Below, piece after piece: positions 47,545 to 53,578 of a stretch of DNA of 55,985 bases. Both the position numbers and the translations under genes were made by a program. The notes under the pieces were generated by a model that was not told the DNA's origin, did not search any database, and worked only from the letters and a program-made list of their open reading frames with translations. This DNA comes from Syntrophales bacterium. Lineage in GTDB: Bacteria > Desulfobacterota > Syntrophia > Syntrophales > UBA2210. Position 1 is the first letter of the stretch. Every line of letters starts with the position of its first letter. Location of the stretch: the NCBI GenBank assembly GCA_028718565.1, contig JAQULO010000006.1:1-55985 (forward strand), written 5' to 3'.

Positions 47545-48975
47545 CTAGTTCGGCATAGGTACGCTGCCGAGGAGGTATTTCAGGTCTTCATCCTCAAATT
47601 TTATCGAGAATCCTACGAAGGGGGAGTCTCCACCCTCGTTGCTGATAAAGTCATCCCATCCGGCCGACAGGTAGATATGTTTCAGGAACCGGTATTCGGC
47701 GTATGTCTTGAGGTGCGCGTTCCGATCGCTGCCAAAGTCAAAGACCTCGAAGGTAAGCTGTAGCCTGTCATCAAGGGCAAAATAGTCCACCCCGACGCCG
47801 CCCGTTGATTCAAAGACACCTCCCCTGAGAGCTATATCCTTGAATCTCTTGCCGATTTGCGCGGTGAACAGGAGTTCGTCCCGCTCCCACGTCTCGGTTC
47901 GCGCTGTTGCTCCTCCCGCCGGGGTGGTGTCGGTTACCGTCAGTCTGCCATTGGGGTTGGTAACCAGGCCGAGGACATAGAATTTGTCTTCCTTCGGCCG
48001 TATCGTCAGGTCAATGTAACCCTTCCCGTCACCGCTGTCGAACAGGTATTCCCCCCGGTAACTGAGAAAAGTCTTAAACTGCTCGGACTTGGACACGTAC
48101 CGGTCTATCCCATCCATACTCTTTCCGATGCTCTTGAGGCTCGAATTCAGATTATCGACGGTATCTTCGTCATTGACCAGTTTTCCTATGGAGCCTTCCC
48201 CCCGGTTAATCTTTTCGGTAATGCCCTTGAGTGAGACAAGGGTCTGATTGAGGTTATCGAAGGCATCCCTGTTTTCAACCAACTGGCCGATGGTGCCCTC
48301 TCCACTATCGATCTTTTCCACGATACTGTTCAGCGTCGCAAAGGTCCTGCGCATCTCTGACGATGCCTCGCTGAGATTGTCAACCATCAGGTTGAGCTTC
48401 GCGTCGTTTTGTCTCACGATACGGGCAAGATCCTCCGTAATAGCCCTGGTGTTATCGATGATCGCCCTGATATTTTCCTCCCCCTTCGCGCCCCCCATGG
48501 AATTTTTCAGCGAGGCCGTAACCTCCATCACATCACCGGCTATGGTGCCGAGTTCACTGAGCAGCTTGTCGATATCGGCCTGCTGCTCTGTTCTGACGAT
48601 ATCTCCGCCGACCGCAATATAGGCCTCGCCCAATGTTCCGGGGACAATATCGACATACTTGTCCCCCAGTATGCCGTACGCCTTTATCTTGGCCTGCACA
48701 TCTTTCTCCAGCCTCACATTTGGAACTATCCGGAGCGTAACCAAGGCTTTGCCGTCCTTGAGGGATATATCCTCGACCCGCCCGACCTCTACGCCCGCTA
48801 TCTGCACGGAGGCATCCTTTTCAAGTCCCGTCGCGTTATCGAATACCACGTGCACCGGGTATCCCTTCTTGAGGCCGAACCCCTTCTCGCCGACCCTGAA
48901 TGACATGTATCCCAATATGATCAATGCCACCAGAACGAACAGGCCCACCTTTGCTTCCGTGCTGATTGAAGACAT
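47545..48975 (-). CDS. mlaD: MlaD/MCE-domain protein with beta-rich C-terminal domain
   Basis: This 476-residue periplasmic lipid-binding subunit of the Mla transporter has one transmembrane anchor (AKVGLFVLVALIILGYMSFR), an MCE domain at about 35-110 (GYPVHVVFDNATGLEKDASV; IAGVEVGRVEDISL; AYGILGDKYVDIVPG) and a long helical needle region (about 135-290) with repeated SGEGTIGQLVEN and RGEGSIGKLVND motifs. A beta-strand-rich domain follows to the end (GYIDLTIRPKEDKFYVLGL; LRGGVFESTGGVGVDYFALD). Short MlaD proteins such as E. coli's (183 residues) lack the last part. The start at 48975 follows GGAGAA. It is the last gene of the mlaEFD set. Confidence 0.88.
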   Translation of the reverse strand: MSSISTEAKVGLFVLVALIILGYMSFRVGEKGFGLKKGYPVHVVFDNATGLEKDASVQIAGVEVGRVEDISLKDGKALVTLRIVPNVRLEKDVQAKIKAYGILGDKYVDIVPGTLGEAYIAVGGDIVRTEQQADIDKLLSELGTIAGDVMEVTASLKNSMGGAKGEENIRAIIDNTRAITEDLARIVRQNDAKLNLMVDNLSEASSEMRRTFATLNSIVEKIDSGEGTIGQLVENRDAFDNLNQTLVSLKGITEKINRGEGSIGKLVNDEDTVDNLNSSLKSIGKSMDGIDRYVSKSEQFKTFLSYRGEYLFDSGDGKGYIDLTIRPKEDKFYVLGLVTNPNGRLTVTDTTPAGGATARTETWERDELLFTAQIGKRFKDIALRGGVFESTGGVGVDYFALDDRLQLTFEVFDFGSDRNAHLKTYAEYRFLKHIYLSAGWDDFISNEGGDSPFVGFSIKFEDEDLKYLLGSVPMPN

Positions 48976-49032
48976 CTTCTTCTCCATTCTTAGTAATTGG
49001 GGTTTTGGGTTTTCACCGCTACACCGGTTCTC

Positions 49033-49779
49033 CTACATAACACTGATCGGACCTTCAAGACTTCCGGAAAGAAACTGCCTGAGTACGGGATTGGATGATC
49101 CTCGTATCTCTTCGGAAGTCCCGTATTCCACGATCTTACCTTCATAGAGCATGGCTATTCTGTGCCCCACCTTGAAGATCGACTGGACATCGTGACTGAT
49201 GACCACACAGGTGAGTTCGAAACTCTTCTGCGTCTCAATGATGAGTTCGTTGATCGCCTCCGTCATCACGGGGTCCAGGCCGGTCGTGGGTTCGTCAAAG
49301 AGGACGATCTGCGGATGCAGGGCAATCGCCCTGGCGAGGCCAACTCTCTTACGCATACCCCCGCTCAGCTCCGAAGGCATCTTGTTTTCAACACCGGGAA
49401 GACCGACCGCCTTGAGCATCTCCGCCACTGTTTGCCTGATCTCCGCATCCTTCTTTTTGGTGTGCGCTCTGAGGGGAAAGGCGACATTCTCCATAACATT
49501 CATGGAATCAAAGAGCGCCGCCTCCTGAAAGAGCATCCCGAATTTCTTCCGTATCTCATTAAGATCTCTGTCGTTCAGCGAGGCAATATCCACACCGTCA
49601 ACGATGACCTGTCCGCTGTCGGGCCGCAGGAGGCCGATAATGTGCTTGAGGAGGACACTCTTCCCCCCGCCGCTCCCCCCGATAATAACGGTGGTCTTGC
49701 CGTCTTCTATATCGAGATTGATGCCGCCCAGGACCTTCTGCCGCCCAAACGACTTATGTACATCTACCAGCTTGATCAT
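49033..49779 (-). CDS. mlaF: Mla ABC transporter ATP-binding protein
   Basis: This 248-residue ABC ATPase drives lipid transport between the membranes. It shows Walker A VIIGGSGGGKSVLLKHIIGL, the signature LSGGMRKRVGLARAIALHPQ, Walker B IVLFDEPTTGLDPVM and the switch histidine VVISHDVQSIF. The GGSGGGKS Walker A and the KRVGLARA segment are typical of the Mla/Mkl family. It follows mlaE (52 bases) and precedes mlaD (57 bases) in the same operon. Confidence 0.95.
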   Translation of the reverse strand: MIKLVDVHKSFGRQKVLGGINLDIEDGKTTVIIGGSGGGKSVLLKHIIGLLRPDSGQVIVDGVDIASLNDRDLNEIRKKFGMLFQEAALFDSMNVMENVAFPLRAHTKKKDAEIRQTVAEMLKAVGLPGVENKMPSELSGGMRKRVGLARAIALHPQIVLFDEPTTGLDPVMTEAINELIIETQKSFELTCVVISHDVQSIFKVGHRIAMLYEGKIVEYGTSEEIRGSSNPVLRQFLSGSLEGPISVM

Positions 49780-49831: not shown

Positions 49832-50611
49832 CTAAAACATAATCGCCGTCAGAAAATAGTCGCTTACCAGGATCGAAACGGACGCGAGGACCACCGCCTC
49901 CGTGGTGGCCTTTCCCACCCCCTCGGCACCCCCCGTCGTGTTGAAACCCTTGTAACATCCTACCAGGGACAGGATGAGTCCAAAGAATGCCGCCTTGATC
50001 AGGCCGTTGTAAATATCGCCCAGATCCACCATCTTTGTAATATTCTTTATGAAAGCTCCCGCATTGATATTCAGGATCGGCACCCCCACAAAATACCCGC
50101 CCAAGATCCCCATAAAATCGGACACGATGGTGAGGGCGGGGAGCATTATCACCCCCGCGATTATCCTCGGAACAATAAGATGTTTGACAGGGTTCGTGGC
50201 CATGACAGACAGGGCGTCGATCTGCTCGGTTACGCGCATTGTCCCCAGTTCGGCGGCCATGGCGGAGCCCGCCCTGGCGGTCACCATCAGGGCGGTGAGC
50301 ACCGGCCCCAGTTCCCTGGTCATCCCCAGCGCGACGGTGGAACCAACAAGGCTCTCGGCGTTGAACATCCTGAATCCGTAATAACCCTGGAGCGCCATGA
50401 CCATACCGGTAAACGTGCCGGTGAGAACGACGACAAAGATGGACTTGACACCGACGAATTCCATCTGTTTGAAGATCAGGCGAAGCTTCAGGGGGGGGCG
50501 TACCATCCACATCAGAACGGAGATGAAGAGGATAAATATCCTCCCCATCTCCTCGATGTTATCCAGGACGGCCCTTCCAAATCTGTCAACTGCCGCGGAA
50601 ATCCTATTCAT
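49832..50611 (-). CDS. mlaE: Mla ABC transporter permease
   Basis: This 259-residue membrane protein has five to six helices and the MlaE pattern: FVGVKSIFVVVLTGTFTGMV, GMTRELGPVLTALMVTARAG, AELGTMRVTEQIDALSVMAT, NPVKHLIVPRIIAGVIMLP and the C-terminal GAEGVGKATTEAVVLASVSI. The segment EQIDAL is the coupling-helix motif. It begins 12 bases after the stop of the second ddl gene. Confidence 0.95.
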   Translation of the reverse strand: MNRISAAVDRFGRAVLDNIEEMGRIFILFISVLMWMVRPPLKLRLIFKQMEFVGVKSIFVVVLTGTFTGMVMALQGYYGFRMFNAESLVGSTVALGMTRELGPVLTALMVTARAGSAMAAELGTMRVTEQIDALSVMATNPVKHLIVPRIIAGVIMLPALTIVSDFMGILGGYFVGVPILNINAGAFIKNITKMVDLGDIYNGLIKAAFFGLILSLVGCYKGFNTTGGAEGVGKATTEAVVLASVSILVSDYFLTAIMF

Positions 50612-50623
50612 ACACTACCCGGC

Positions 50624-51694
50624 CTACAGCGGTCCCTTTTTGCCTGCGTGAGCATCGAGCGATAGCTGTATAATTTTGCTGATTAACTCGGTCTGCGTAA
50701 TCCCCTCGGCCGCTGCCTGGTGAAAGAGCACCGTGGAGGGAGTCATCCCTGGCAGACTGTTCGGTTCAAGGACCACCACCCGCCCGTCGCCGGGGACAAA
50801 CATATCTATCCTCGCGTAGGCCTTCAGTCCCAGAACCAGAAACACCCTGACGGCCACGGCCTGTATCCTCTTGAGGACATCCTCCGGCAACCGCGCGGGC
50901 GTCTTGTTCTCCCCCTGACCATACAGGAATTTATCCTCCAGTGAAAGAATTCCTTTCGTCGGTATCGTCTCGGAGGGGATAAGGGCAACAGGTGCATCGT
51001 TTCCGATAACGCCACAGGTGACCTCCATTCCGGAGATGAATTCTTCAACCAGGGCCACGCTGTCCCATTCGAATGCCGCCAGGAGTGCACTTCCGATACC
51101 CTCCGGCGATATGACCTTTTTGACTGTCGTGCTGCACCCTTCCCGGGTCGGCTTTACCACACAAGGGAACCCAATATCCCTTTCGATTTCACCGAGGACA
51201 CTCTCTTTGTTCCTGTCCCATTCCTTTACGGAAACCGCCCTCGTCCGCGGGACATCCATCCCGCTCATGGCGATCACTTTCCGGGAGGCATACTTGTCGA
51301 TACCGAGCGCCGAACCCAGCACCCCGGACCCGGTATAGGGTATACCGAGCAGTTCCAACAGTCCCTGCAGGCAGCCATCTTCTCCATACTTGCCGTGAAG
51401 GCCTATGTAGACAAAGTCCACCGCCGACTTCAGCTCTTCATAGAAAATTCTCTTTGCATCTTCCGCCAGGTCCGCCTCGATATCCCCGGTGGAATTGCGC
51501 ATCAACAGCTTGATCGGGATTTCCCACAGCAAACCCCGGCTGTCCATAAAGATGGGCAGGGGATCGTACTTTTGCCGATCCATCTTGCTGAAAATATTCC
51601 TTCCGCTCTCGAGGGAGACCTCCTTTTCAGAAGACATCCCCCCCAGAATAACCCCAATCCTCATTTTCCCGGGTTTTGTTTTTTCCACAATCAA
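50624..51694 (-). CDS. D-alanine--D-alanine ligase-like protein, variant active site
   Basis: This 356-residue ATP-grasp enzyme has the Ddl fold: RIGVILGGMSSEKEVSLESG, LHGKYGEDGCLQGLLELLGI, VVKPTREGCSTTVKKV, ILSLEDKFL and VVVLEPNSLPGMTPS. Compared with E. coli DdlB, Ser150 of the loop is Cys187 here and the Tyr216 of the omega loop is Phe256 (DKF rather than DKY). Mg-binding Glu310 and Asn312 are intact. A Tyr-to-Phe change at this position gives DdlB the ability to make D-Ala-D-lactate and occurs naturally in Leuconostoc Ddl, so a depsipeptide or altered D-amino-acid product is possible. The start is TTG at 51694 (GGGAG before it); ATG at 51664 is an alternative. Confidence 0.85.
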   Translation of the reverse strand: MIVEKTKPGKMRIGVILGGMSSEKEVSLESGRNIFSKMDRQKYDPLPIFMDSRGLLWEIPIKLLMRNSTGDIEADLAEDAKRIFYEELKSAVDFVYIGLHGKYGEDGCLQGLLELLGIPYTGSGVLGSALGIDKYASRKVIAMSGMDVPRTRAVSVKEWDRNKESVLGEIERDIGFPCVVKPTREGCSTTVKKVISPEGIGSALLAAFEWDSVALVEEFISGMEVTCGVIGNDAPVALIPSETIPTKGILSLEDKFLYGQGENKTPARLPEDVLKRIQAVAVRVFLVLGLKAYARIDMFVPGDGRVVVLEPNSLPGMTPSTVLFHQAAAEGITQTELISKIIQLSLDAHAGKKGPL

Positions 51695-51706
51695 TTGTTA
51701 CTCCCG

Positions 51707-52489
51707 TCAAAAACTAATCGTCAGGCCGGCATACGGTCCCTTGAATTCAATGTCCGCGTACACATCACTGATATCATCCACATCCAGTTTCATGATCCTG
51801 TATCCCCCCTGAATATCCAGAAAGGGAAATGGCGTGTAGGAAACCTCGACCAGCCCTTCATAAAAGGTGTTGTCTGGGTACATGATGCCGGCTCCCCGTA
51901 CCCTCGCTTCCAGAATATCGGCAAGGATGCCCACATGCAACGCCAGGCCTACCATGGGGATAGGCGCCTTGAAGGACTCTTTCTCATCATATCCGAGGGA
52001 CGAAGCCCTCAGCCGGGCTTCCCCTTCAACATATTTGACCTTGCCGATGATCCCCAGAGAAAATCCGGCAAGGATGTTCTCTAAATCCATAACATCGTAC
52101 TGATATTCCAGATCGATCATCGTGAATTCCAGATCAGACTGAACAAGGGTACTGCTCGTATATGTCCTTCCCATAAAATTAATCGTTCGGTCCAGGTTCT
52201 TTTCACCCGAGTAATCGGCCTTTGTATACATGAGACTTACGTGGTGGCTTCCTATCCCGGCAAAGGCCTCGACAGAGGGATAGTTCTCATCGCCGATGCC
52301 GAGATCATTGTTCACATCAATGTTCGCCCCGACGACCCCGTTCTTGTCCACCCTGAAATCTCCGGAAAGTTCTGGCAGCCACCAGTATGCCCGTGCCCCA
52401 AATTCAAGGGCCTGCGCCGAGGCGGAAAAGATCAAGAAACCAATAAAAACAGCAAGTGCATATACAATCGTTGGTCTATTCTTTTTCAT
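51707..52489 (-). CDS. Outer-membrane beta-barrel protein
   Basis: This 260-residue protein has a signal peptide (residues 1-28, cleaved after SASAQA) and a mature chain of alternating strands, starting LEFGARAYWWLPELSGDFRV, and ends in the aromatic-terminal strand GPYAGLTISF, as expected for Bam-inserted barrels. Typical paired strands are SHHVSLMYTKADYSG and VEVSYTPFPFLDIQGGYRIM. It looks like the TIGR04219-type outer-membrane family. It lies between the two ddl genes (12 and 27 bases), which suggests a role in the same envelope function, though its cargo is unknown. Confidence 0.85.
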   Translation of the reverse strand: MKKNRPTIVYALAVFIGFLIFSASAQALEFGARAYWWLPELSGDFRVDKNGVVGANIDVNNDLGIGDENYPSVEAFAGIGSHHVSLMYTKADYSGEKNLDRTINFMGRTYTSSTLVQSDLEFTMIDLEYQYDVMDLENILAGFSLGIIGKVKYVEGEARLRASSLGYDEKESFKAPIPMVGLALHVGILADILEARVRGAGIMYPDNTFYEGLVEVSYTPFPFLDIQGGYRIMKLDVDDISDVYADIEFKGPYAGLTISF

Positions 52490-52516
52490 TGCGTACCCTT
52501 CCCTCTCATACTTACA

Positions 52517-53578
52517 TTATTGTAGCGGGCCTTTTTTCTCTCCATGAATCCCGGCCGAAGCCTCTACCAGCCCGGACAGTATCATGGAGGGAAGCATCCC
52601 GGCCTCAGCGGCCTGTTCAAAGAAAAAAGATGACGGCGCCATTCCCGAAGACGAATTGGGATCGGTAATCAGGACCCTGCCGTCGTCCAGGACAAACCCG
52701 TCTATGCGGCCGTACGACCTGAATCCCAGGGTTTCGAACGCCTTGATAACGCTCGCCTTGATCCGGTCAACCACATCGGCGGGGATATTCCGGGGGGGCG
52801 TAAATTTGCTGCACCTGCCCGGCATGTACTTATCGTCGTACGAGTAAAAATCGCTCTGCGGATGGATTTCGGTAACCCCAAGTATGGCGGGGCCCTCCTC
52901 TCCCTCCAGAACGATGCACGAAAATTCAACCCCTTCGAGGTATTCCTCGATCAGGGCAGCCCTGTCCCATTTGAAGGCCCCGGCCATCGCATCCTCCAGC
53001 ATGCCGGGATCTCTCACAATGGTCACCCCCATGCTCGATCCTTCCCTGACAGGTTTGACGACGAAAGGGATCGTGAATGCCTCCGTTATCCTTTGCCTGG
53101 CAACCTCTTTATCCTGCAGCCACGTATCTTCCCCCACCACCATACTCTCGGGCACATCGACACCCTCCGCCTTTAGTATCTTCTGCTGCACACTCTTATC
53201 CATACCCAGGGCGGAGGCCAGGACGCCGGGACCGGTATAGGGAATCCCCAGAATCTCAAGAAGCCCCTGGATGCACCCGTCGTCGCCATATTTCCCGTGG
53301 AGGGAGATGAAGGCAAAATCGATCTCATCCCTCAGCCCCTCGTACGATATCCGCCGCGCGTCCTGTGCGAGATGATCCGAGATATCGGCCGTTGTGTTCT
53401 GGGATACCAGTTGCCAGGGAATAATCCACAGCCTTCCCGCGCCATCCATAAAGATGGGAACGGCCTCATACCTCTCCCTGTCCAGGTTATCATAGACATT
53501 CCGGCCACTGTTCAGTGATACCTCTTTCTCAGAAGACATCCCGCCCAATATAATCCCGACTCTCAACAATTTTACCAA
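52517..53578 (-). CDS. ddl: D-alanine--D-alanine ligase-like protein
   Basis: This 353-residue ATP-grasp ligase makes the D-Ala-D-Ala terminus of peptidoglycan precursors. Motifs: VGIILGGMSSEKEVSLNSGR, LHGKYGDDGCIQGLLEILGI, VVKPVREGSSMGVTIV (Ser181), DFYSYDDKYMPG (Lys250-Tyr251) and RIDGFVLDDGRVLITDPNSS. The substrate Ser and Tyr are as in DdlB, but the Mg-binding Glu of LEAN is Asp306 here (TDPN). The start appears to be TTG at 53578 with AAGGAA upstream. It is 34 bases after alr and similar to the paralogue downstream. Confidence 0.9.
   Translation of the reverse strand: MVKLLRVGIILGGMSSEKEVSLNSGRNVYDNLDRERYEAVPIFMDGAGRLWIIPWQLVSQNTTADISDHLAQDARRISYEGLRDEIDFAFISLHGKYGDDGCIQGLLEILGIPYTGPGVLASALGMDKSVQQKILKAEGVDVPESMVVGEDTWLQDKEVARQRITEAFTIPFVVKPVREGSSMGVTIVRDPGMLEDAMAGAFKWDRAALIEEYLEGVEFSCIVLEGEEGPAILGVTEIHPQSDFYSYDDKYMPGRCSKFTPPRNIPADVVDRIKASVIKAFETLGFRSYGRIDGFVLDDGRVLITDPNSSSGMAPSSFFFEQAAEAGMLPSMILSGLVEASAGIHGEKKGPLQ

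Follow-up and report, generated by a model that had tools for sequence, protein, structure and literature searches.

Two unlike genes of D-alanine–D-alanine ligase (Ddl), named here P1 and P2, lie in one apparent operon of a Syntrophales bacterium and probably encode one D-Ala-D-Ala ligase that is built from two different subunits, both of them obligatory. In the genome to which the window belongs (the window being the whole stretch of 55,985 nucleotides analysed) and in most Syntrophales this enzyme would be a heterodimer, and in Dependentiae and some Bacteroidota it would be a fusion of two modules, the P1-type followed by the P2-type. The two-part enzyme would replace the usual homodimeric Ddl and supply MurF. 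All descriptions of Ddl known to us present it as a homodimer that is sufficient by itself. A literature search of limited coverage, including few subscription papers, found no description of a heterodimeric, fused or duplicated Ddl, and the two-part complementary architecture appears to be new; the chemistry and the fold appear to be those of the known family. If this reading is correct, a near-universal step of cell-wall synthesis has a new architecture in much of a syntrophic order and in nearly all sampled members of the candidate phylum Dependentiae. Ddl is a validated antibiotic target (D-cycloserine).

Organization of the locus

P1, the gene of an outer-membrane barrel and P2 share a minus-strand apparent operon opened by alr in the window genome (Table 1). 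The gene order on this strand is alr, P1, barrel gene, P2, mlaE, ABC ATPase gene and mlaD, and the intergenic gaps from alr to mlaE are, in order, 34, 27, 12 and 12 bp. An earlier note on this DNA had placed both Ddl reading frames in one operon, and the ORF positions, on the minus strand, agree with it exactly.

Table 1. Features of the ligase locus in the window
Feature	Position (bp)	Strand	Remarks
alr, alanine racemase (residues 13–379) with a C-terminal extension of ~275 aa	53,613–55,580	-	First gene of the apparent operon; TIGR00492, 348.7 bits (cut-off 168)
P1, putative Ddl-type ATP-grasp subunit; S150/Y216 kept, E270D (S181, Y251, D306)	52,517–53,578	-	353 aa, TTG start; PF01820 and PF07478; P1-type clade 100/98
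P1 codon D306, Asp replacing the Mg ligand Glu270	52,661–52,663	-	D in 107/108 P1-type sequences
Outer-membrane beta-barrel protein between both ligases	51,707–52,489	-	TIGR04219, 94.1 bits, below the cut-off of 105
P2, putative Ddl-type ATP-grasp subunit; S150C, Y216F, S281T, E270 kept (C187, F256, E310)	50,624–51,694	-	356 aa, TTG start; PF01820 and PF07478; P2-type clade 100/99
P2 phosphate-loop motif R184-E-G-C187-S188 (canonical REGSS), Cys replacing Ser150	51,131–51,145	-	C in 109/109 P2-type sequences
P2 omega-loop motif E253-D-K-F256, Phe replacing Tyr216	50,927–50,938	-	F in 108/108 P2-type sequences
MlaE-type permease, neighbour outside the ligase	49,832–50,611	-	12 bp downstream of P2; PF02405, 286.6 bits
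ABC ATPase, probably of the same transporter as the MlaE-type permease	49,033–49,779	-	PF00005, 120 bits
MlaD/MCE-domain protein	47,545–48,987	-	PF02470, 72.7 bits

Both ligase proteins matched PF01820 and PF07478 with scores above the cut-offs (100.6 and 144.4 bits for P1, 95.2 and 154.4 bits for P2). The TIGR01205 scores of the window copies (259.0 and 248.3 bits) were barely above the cut-off of 245.65, and the NCBIfam subfamily models labelled each part simply as D-alanine--D-alanine ligase. The beta-barrel gene was found between P1 and P2 in many relatives and was missing from that spot in many others, and its product is probably outside the ligase function. The only Pfam matches of the alr protein were PF01168 and PF00842, spanning residues 17–376; its C-terminal extension had no Pfam match and is conserved at a similar length throughout Syntrophales.

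Another contig of the window genome (C73; L092, 5144–8956 bp) contains a gene of the KamA radical SAM family followed by two tandem genes for Ddl-like ATP-grasp proteins and a GNAT gene. The tandem proteins were considered as a third Ddl and rejected, since they match PF07478 and lack the Ddl N domain (PF01820), and since their genes stand beside the KamA-like and GNAT genes.

Active-site residues of the two types

Active-site positions follow the numbering of E. coli DdlB, whose sequence was taken from the MG1655 genome. The earlier note had named Ser181, Tyr251 and Asp306 in P1 and Cys187, Phe256 and Glu310 in P2; its numbering proved exact, and each set aligns to S150, Y216 and E270 of DdlB, with E270 changed to D in P1, and S150 to C and Y216 to F in P2. 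Further changes relative to DdlB are E68D, P275S and L282F in P1 and G153T, S281T and L282V in P2.

The signature of the types was determined using 109 sequences of each type, drawn from Syntrophales, Dependentiae and, in small number, Bacteroidota. The P1-type sequences contained S150 (109/109), Y216 (109/109) and D270 (107/108), and the P2-type sequences contained C150 (109/109), F216 (108/108) and E270 (108/108). Just five alignment columns were fixed differently in the two types, at a level of at least 90% in each: S/C150, T/S201, Y/F216, M/L217 and D/E270 (P1/P2). Three of them, namely 150, 216 and 270, are the positions that the earlier note had singled out, and their opposite states are not due to chance, being near-invariant across 109 and 109 sequences. 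All 16 classical Ddls compared had S/Y/E; their sources were E. coli, Desulfobacterota of other orders and those Syntrophales lineages that lack the pair. The Glu15–Ser150–Tyr216 triad together with Glu270, which the classical enzymes have in one subunit, is complete in neither P1 nor P2, as P1 lacks E270 and P2 lacks S150 and Y216. Active-site positions known from mutagenesis are fixed in opposite states in the putative partner subunits, which makes the pair a natural experiment.

Residues E15, H63, K97, K144, E180, E187, K215, R255, D257 and N272 are all present in both window copies and near-invariant across both types. Because each type retains the residues for ATP and D-Ala, neither of them resembles an empty scaffold. 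Both genes are under purifying selection, with similar dN/dS values of 0.08–0.10 for P1 and P2. The pocket of the second D-Ala also differed by type, with S281T and L282V/C in the P2-type and mostly S281 and F282 in the P1-type, and G153 was lost from most P2-type phosphate loops. In 18 of the 61 P2-type halves of Dependentiae the Gly of the PGM motif, invariant in all other sequences, was replaced by Ala (G276A).

In the most likely division of labour P2, keeping the full set of Mg ligands (D257, E270 and N272), would be the obligatory catalytic subunit, even though it lacks Ser150 and Tyr216, with which Glu15 forms the triad holding the omega loop in place. P1, which keeps the triad and has a shortened Mg ligand (E270D), would stabilise or regulate P2, and might itself be slow or confined to ligand binding. 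Catalysis by P2 is favoured, although the odds against catalysis shared by both subunits are about even. Among the readable P2-type sequences no exceptions were found at the charged catalytic residues; the exceptions in the P1-type were H63P with N272G (L205), N272Q (L266) and E180Q/D in four sequences. L205 and L266 are fusions of Dependentiae (genomes G603 and G636), in which the N-half has lost these catalytic residues and the C-half is intact. Genome G603 has no other Ddl, so the P2-type half is probably catalytic in that lineage.

Distribution in Syntrophales and other Desulfobacterota

P1 and P2 were two distinct conserved groups in the relatives and in class-wide searches, and the named relatives belong to Syntrophales. 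The genomes surveyed were mostly draft MAGs; the census of Syntrophales included 84 genomes with at least 95% completeness and was tallied by hand from the matches. Both types were present in 46 genomes and a classical Ddl only in 30, one type only was found in 2, and 6 had no full gene of either, two of these having fragments. The single P1-only genome (G032) and the single P2-only genome (G093) were rejected as true singletons because the gene is located close to a contig end in each. Thus, no genuine singleton of P1 or P2 was found among the 84 genomes, and none of the 46 pair-bearing genomes contained a classical Ddl. A third protein in genome G094 (L247) was rejected as a classical Ddl accompanying the pair, as it lacks the Ddl residues at H63, S150, E187, K215 and Y216. 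Genome G020 has kept both P1 and P2 though they are unlinked, at a distance of ~380 kb.

The pair was absent where one classical Ddl stands, i.e., both types were lost together. In genome G036 the classical Ddl gene is located directly after alr, in the P1 slot, and in G031 it is located between alr and the outer-membrane protein gene on the opposite strand. A C-terminal remnant of P2 (the last 42–56 codons) was found in genome G043 between the outer-membrane protein gene and mlaE (L082, 6081–6278 bp). An ORF similar to substrate-binding proteins occupies the expected P1 position in this genome. The pair was not seen in the 246 genomes sampled from Desulfobacterota beyond Syntrophales.

Fusions in Dependentiae and Bacteroidota

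A scan of genome contigs revealed both types in one ORF in one contig of Candidatus Dependentiae and two of Bacteroidota (L164, L170 and L173, with the P1-type half first and the P2-type half second), and overlapping genes in a fourth contig. The scan demanded exact conserved peptides, so further phyla may also carry the pair. Both types were found in 62 of the 67 Dependentiae genomes: 59 contained them in one ORF (one of these cut by a contig end), two as adjacent split genes (G341 and G631) and one across a run of N (G637). The latter was examined as an insertion within the fusion and rejected, as the gap is an assembly run of N. The other 5 of 67 genomes had no PF01820 match and no Ddl. MurF scored above the cut-off in 61 of the 67. 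Chromulinavorax, a member of Dependentiae, has a complete mur pathway (PMC6561590), and in Babela, of the same phylum, the pathway is absent (PMC4378268), so Dependentiae genomes without the ligase gene are also to be expected.

A full fusion was present in 4 of 247 Bacteroidota genomes and a truncated one in a further genome (G533). The order of the halves in Dependentiae and Bacteroidota was always P1-type to P2-type. The pair or fusion was the only Ddl in the genomes checked, namely the window genome and the tested Dependentiae and Bacteroidota carriers; in these carriers no protein other than the fusion contained the Ddl N domain. A PASTA-like gene was found just downstream of the fused ligase on the same strand in the five Bacteroidota carriers with flanks inspected (L170, L173, L241, L242 and L243; in L173 at 9241–10,062 bp).

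The G533 gene (L199, 1501–3174 bp) encodes a P1-type half and a vestige of the P2-type half and gave the sole PF01820 match in its genome. Its N-type module keeps Asp270 and has canonical P275 and L282; the latter two residues may mean that the module was re-adapted, and an N-type module may be able to work alone. This exception outside Syntrophales counts against an obligate pair.

Phylogenetic analysis and structure prediction

In the Ddl tree, one clade united P1 and the N-halves (support 100/98) and another united P2 and the C-halves (100/99), and the pair was separated from the sampled classical Ddls (98/92). Both halves showed the same topology, Syntrophales/(Bacteroidota, Dependentiae). 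The two type clades with matching internal topology point to one old duplication that preceded the spread to three phyla. Three lineages with a classical Ddl were placed on the alr tree, where they require three changes, two of them forced by well-supported branches, and the classical Ddls of these three Syntrophales lineages scattered to separate places among the classical Ddls in the Ddl tree.

AlphaFold 2 modeling of the natural L164 fusion gave a pLDDT of 83 and a pTM of 0.80. A pTM of 0.77 was obtained for an artificial construct, with no natural counterpart, in which P1 and P2 are joined across the intergenic stop codon; most rows of the P1–P2 alignment were joined by the same read-through. 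A mixed MAFFT alignment was left out of the folding, as P2 rows were seemingly placed on the N-half, judging by identities to the first row. For halves without a fixed arrangement a pTM nearer 0.5 would be expected by our estimate. The pTM values give a slight indication of a defined arrangement of the two halves, and they cannot tell a heterodimer from a homodimer because classical Ddls are already dimers. Foldseek matched single Ddl chains alone and was uninformative on the arrangement of the halves.

Alternative explanations

The earlier note had proposed that the two copies may differ in the terminus they produce. In this scheme P1 and P2 are independent ligases, P1 producing D-Ala-D-Ala and P2 producing D-Ala-D-Lac, D-Ala-D-Ser or another terminus, which we regard as unlikely. 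The residues that the note singled out are functionally important, and the link between the Tyr-to-Phe change and D-Ala-D-Lac synthesis, on which the proposal drew, agrees with the literature (PMC5996685, PMC7691350). Phe occupies the Tyr216 position in the D-Ala-D-Lac ligases of Leuconostoc (F261) and L. reuteri (F258) (PMC5996685), and DdlB with Tyr216-to-Phe and Ser150-to-Ala has weak depsipeptide activity (PMC7691350); 1IOW is the structure of Y216F DdlB. Positions 150 and 216 are those altered in the Leuconostoc D-Ala:D-Lac ligase, and the type-specific pocket of the second D-Ala would also suit different substrates. Joint retention and fusion are also compatible with two different products that are needed together. 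Against separate products stand the lack of a genuine singleton in the Syntrophales tested, the loss of both types where one classical Ddl is present, the status of sole Ddl, where checked, beside MurF, and fusion in the reduced genomes of Dependentiae.

The supply of D-lactate was evaluated via a PF02826 search in the Dependentiae and Bacteroidota carriers. Of 18 Dependentiae genomes searched, 13 had both types, paired or fused. Three of these (G590, G591 and G614) gave clear matches to 2-hydroxyacid dehydrogenases (~180 bits), and the others reached at most ~46 bits. No clear D-2-hydroxyacid dehydrogenase was thus found with PF02826 in 10 of the 13, which bears on D-lactate and says nothing on D-Ser or other acceptors. 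Bacteroidota carriers possess clear PF02826 dehydrogenases, so the D-lactate argument applies to Dependentiae alone. A D-Ala-D-Lac role for P2 was not favoured. The Tyr/Phe rule for predicting D-Ala-D-Lac synthesis should be used with caution for proteins of the paired type.

P1 and P2 could also each be a homodimeric D-Ala-D-Ala ligase, like DdlA and DdlB of E. coli, kept for dosage or regulation. The retention of nearly all Ddl ligand-binding residues in both window copies, the purifying selection on both genes and the N-type module standing alone in G533 fit such isozymes. However, a single loss would then be expected in some lineages, and neither a fusion in one order through a phylum nor three opposite active-site states near-invariant over three phyla would be expected, which makes this explanation improbable.

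A further scheme, suggested by analogy with carbamoyl-phosphate synthetase, is that both sites are catalytic and unequal. The enzyme would then link two different ligations or pass a product from one site to the other, and Syntrophales and Dependentiae would reach D-Ala-D-Ala in two steps or end their stem peptides in an unusual way; we consider it quite improbable. It is likewise quite improbable that one half serves purely as a pseudoenzyme scaffold and binds no ligand: E270D of the P1-type, the occasional loss of N272 and H63 from Dependentiae N-halves and the missing G153 in most P2-type phosphate loops would agree with it, but a scaffold does not need the ten residues, from E15 to N272, that are near-invariant in both types.

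Comparison with known systems

A comparison of the proposed two-part ligase with known systems indicated that P2 resembles the D-Ala:D-Lac ligase of Leuconostoc and Lactobacillus (LmDdl2, PDB 1EHI) in having Phe at position 216 and a residue other than Ser at position 150. However, the latter is Cys in P2 and is reported as Ala in LmDdl2 (PMC7691350), and P2 scored 123 bits with 1EHI versus 194.7 bits with 7U56 (Klebsiella Ddl). In addition, P2 has a constant P1 partner, and most pair-bearing Dependentiae tested are without a D-lactate-forming dehydrogenase. The Van ligases (VanA/B for D-Ala-D-Lac, VanC/G for D-Ala-D-Ser) belong to the same Ddl superfamily, but neither window copy exceeded 210 bits, whereas the NCBIfam cut-offs are 495–775; the best scores were 203–210 bits (VanG, cut-off 495). 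No van operon genes adjoin the pair according to the profile matches of the window neighbours.

Carbamoyl-phosphate synthetase CarB has two homologous tandem ATP-grasp modules that are functionally unequal; its substrates and family are different, and the analogy is one of mechanism only. The chlamydial MurC-Ddl fusion (NF011171) also includes Ddl in a larger fusion protein, but there a Mur ligase is joined to one Ddl, whereas here two unlike Ddl modules are joined.

With the classical homodimeric Ddl (E. coli DdlA/DdlB; TIGR01205, PF01820 and PF07478), the pair shares the two domains, the predicted fold, the ATP and D-Ala residues, the operon with alr and the status of the sole Ddl of the genome. 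Unlike it, the pair consists of two fixed complementary paralogues, found together or fused, with S150C and Y216F in P2 and E270D in P1, and forms a clade separate from the sampled classical Ddls.
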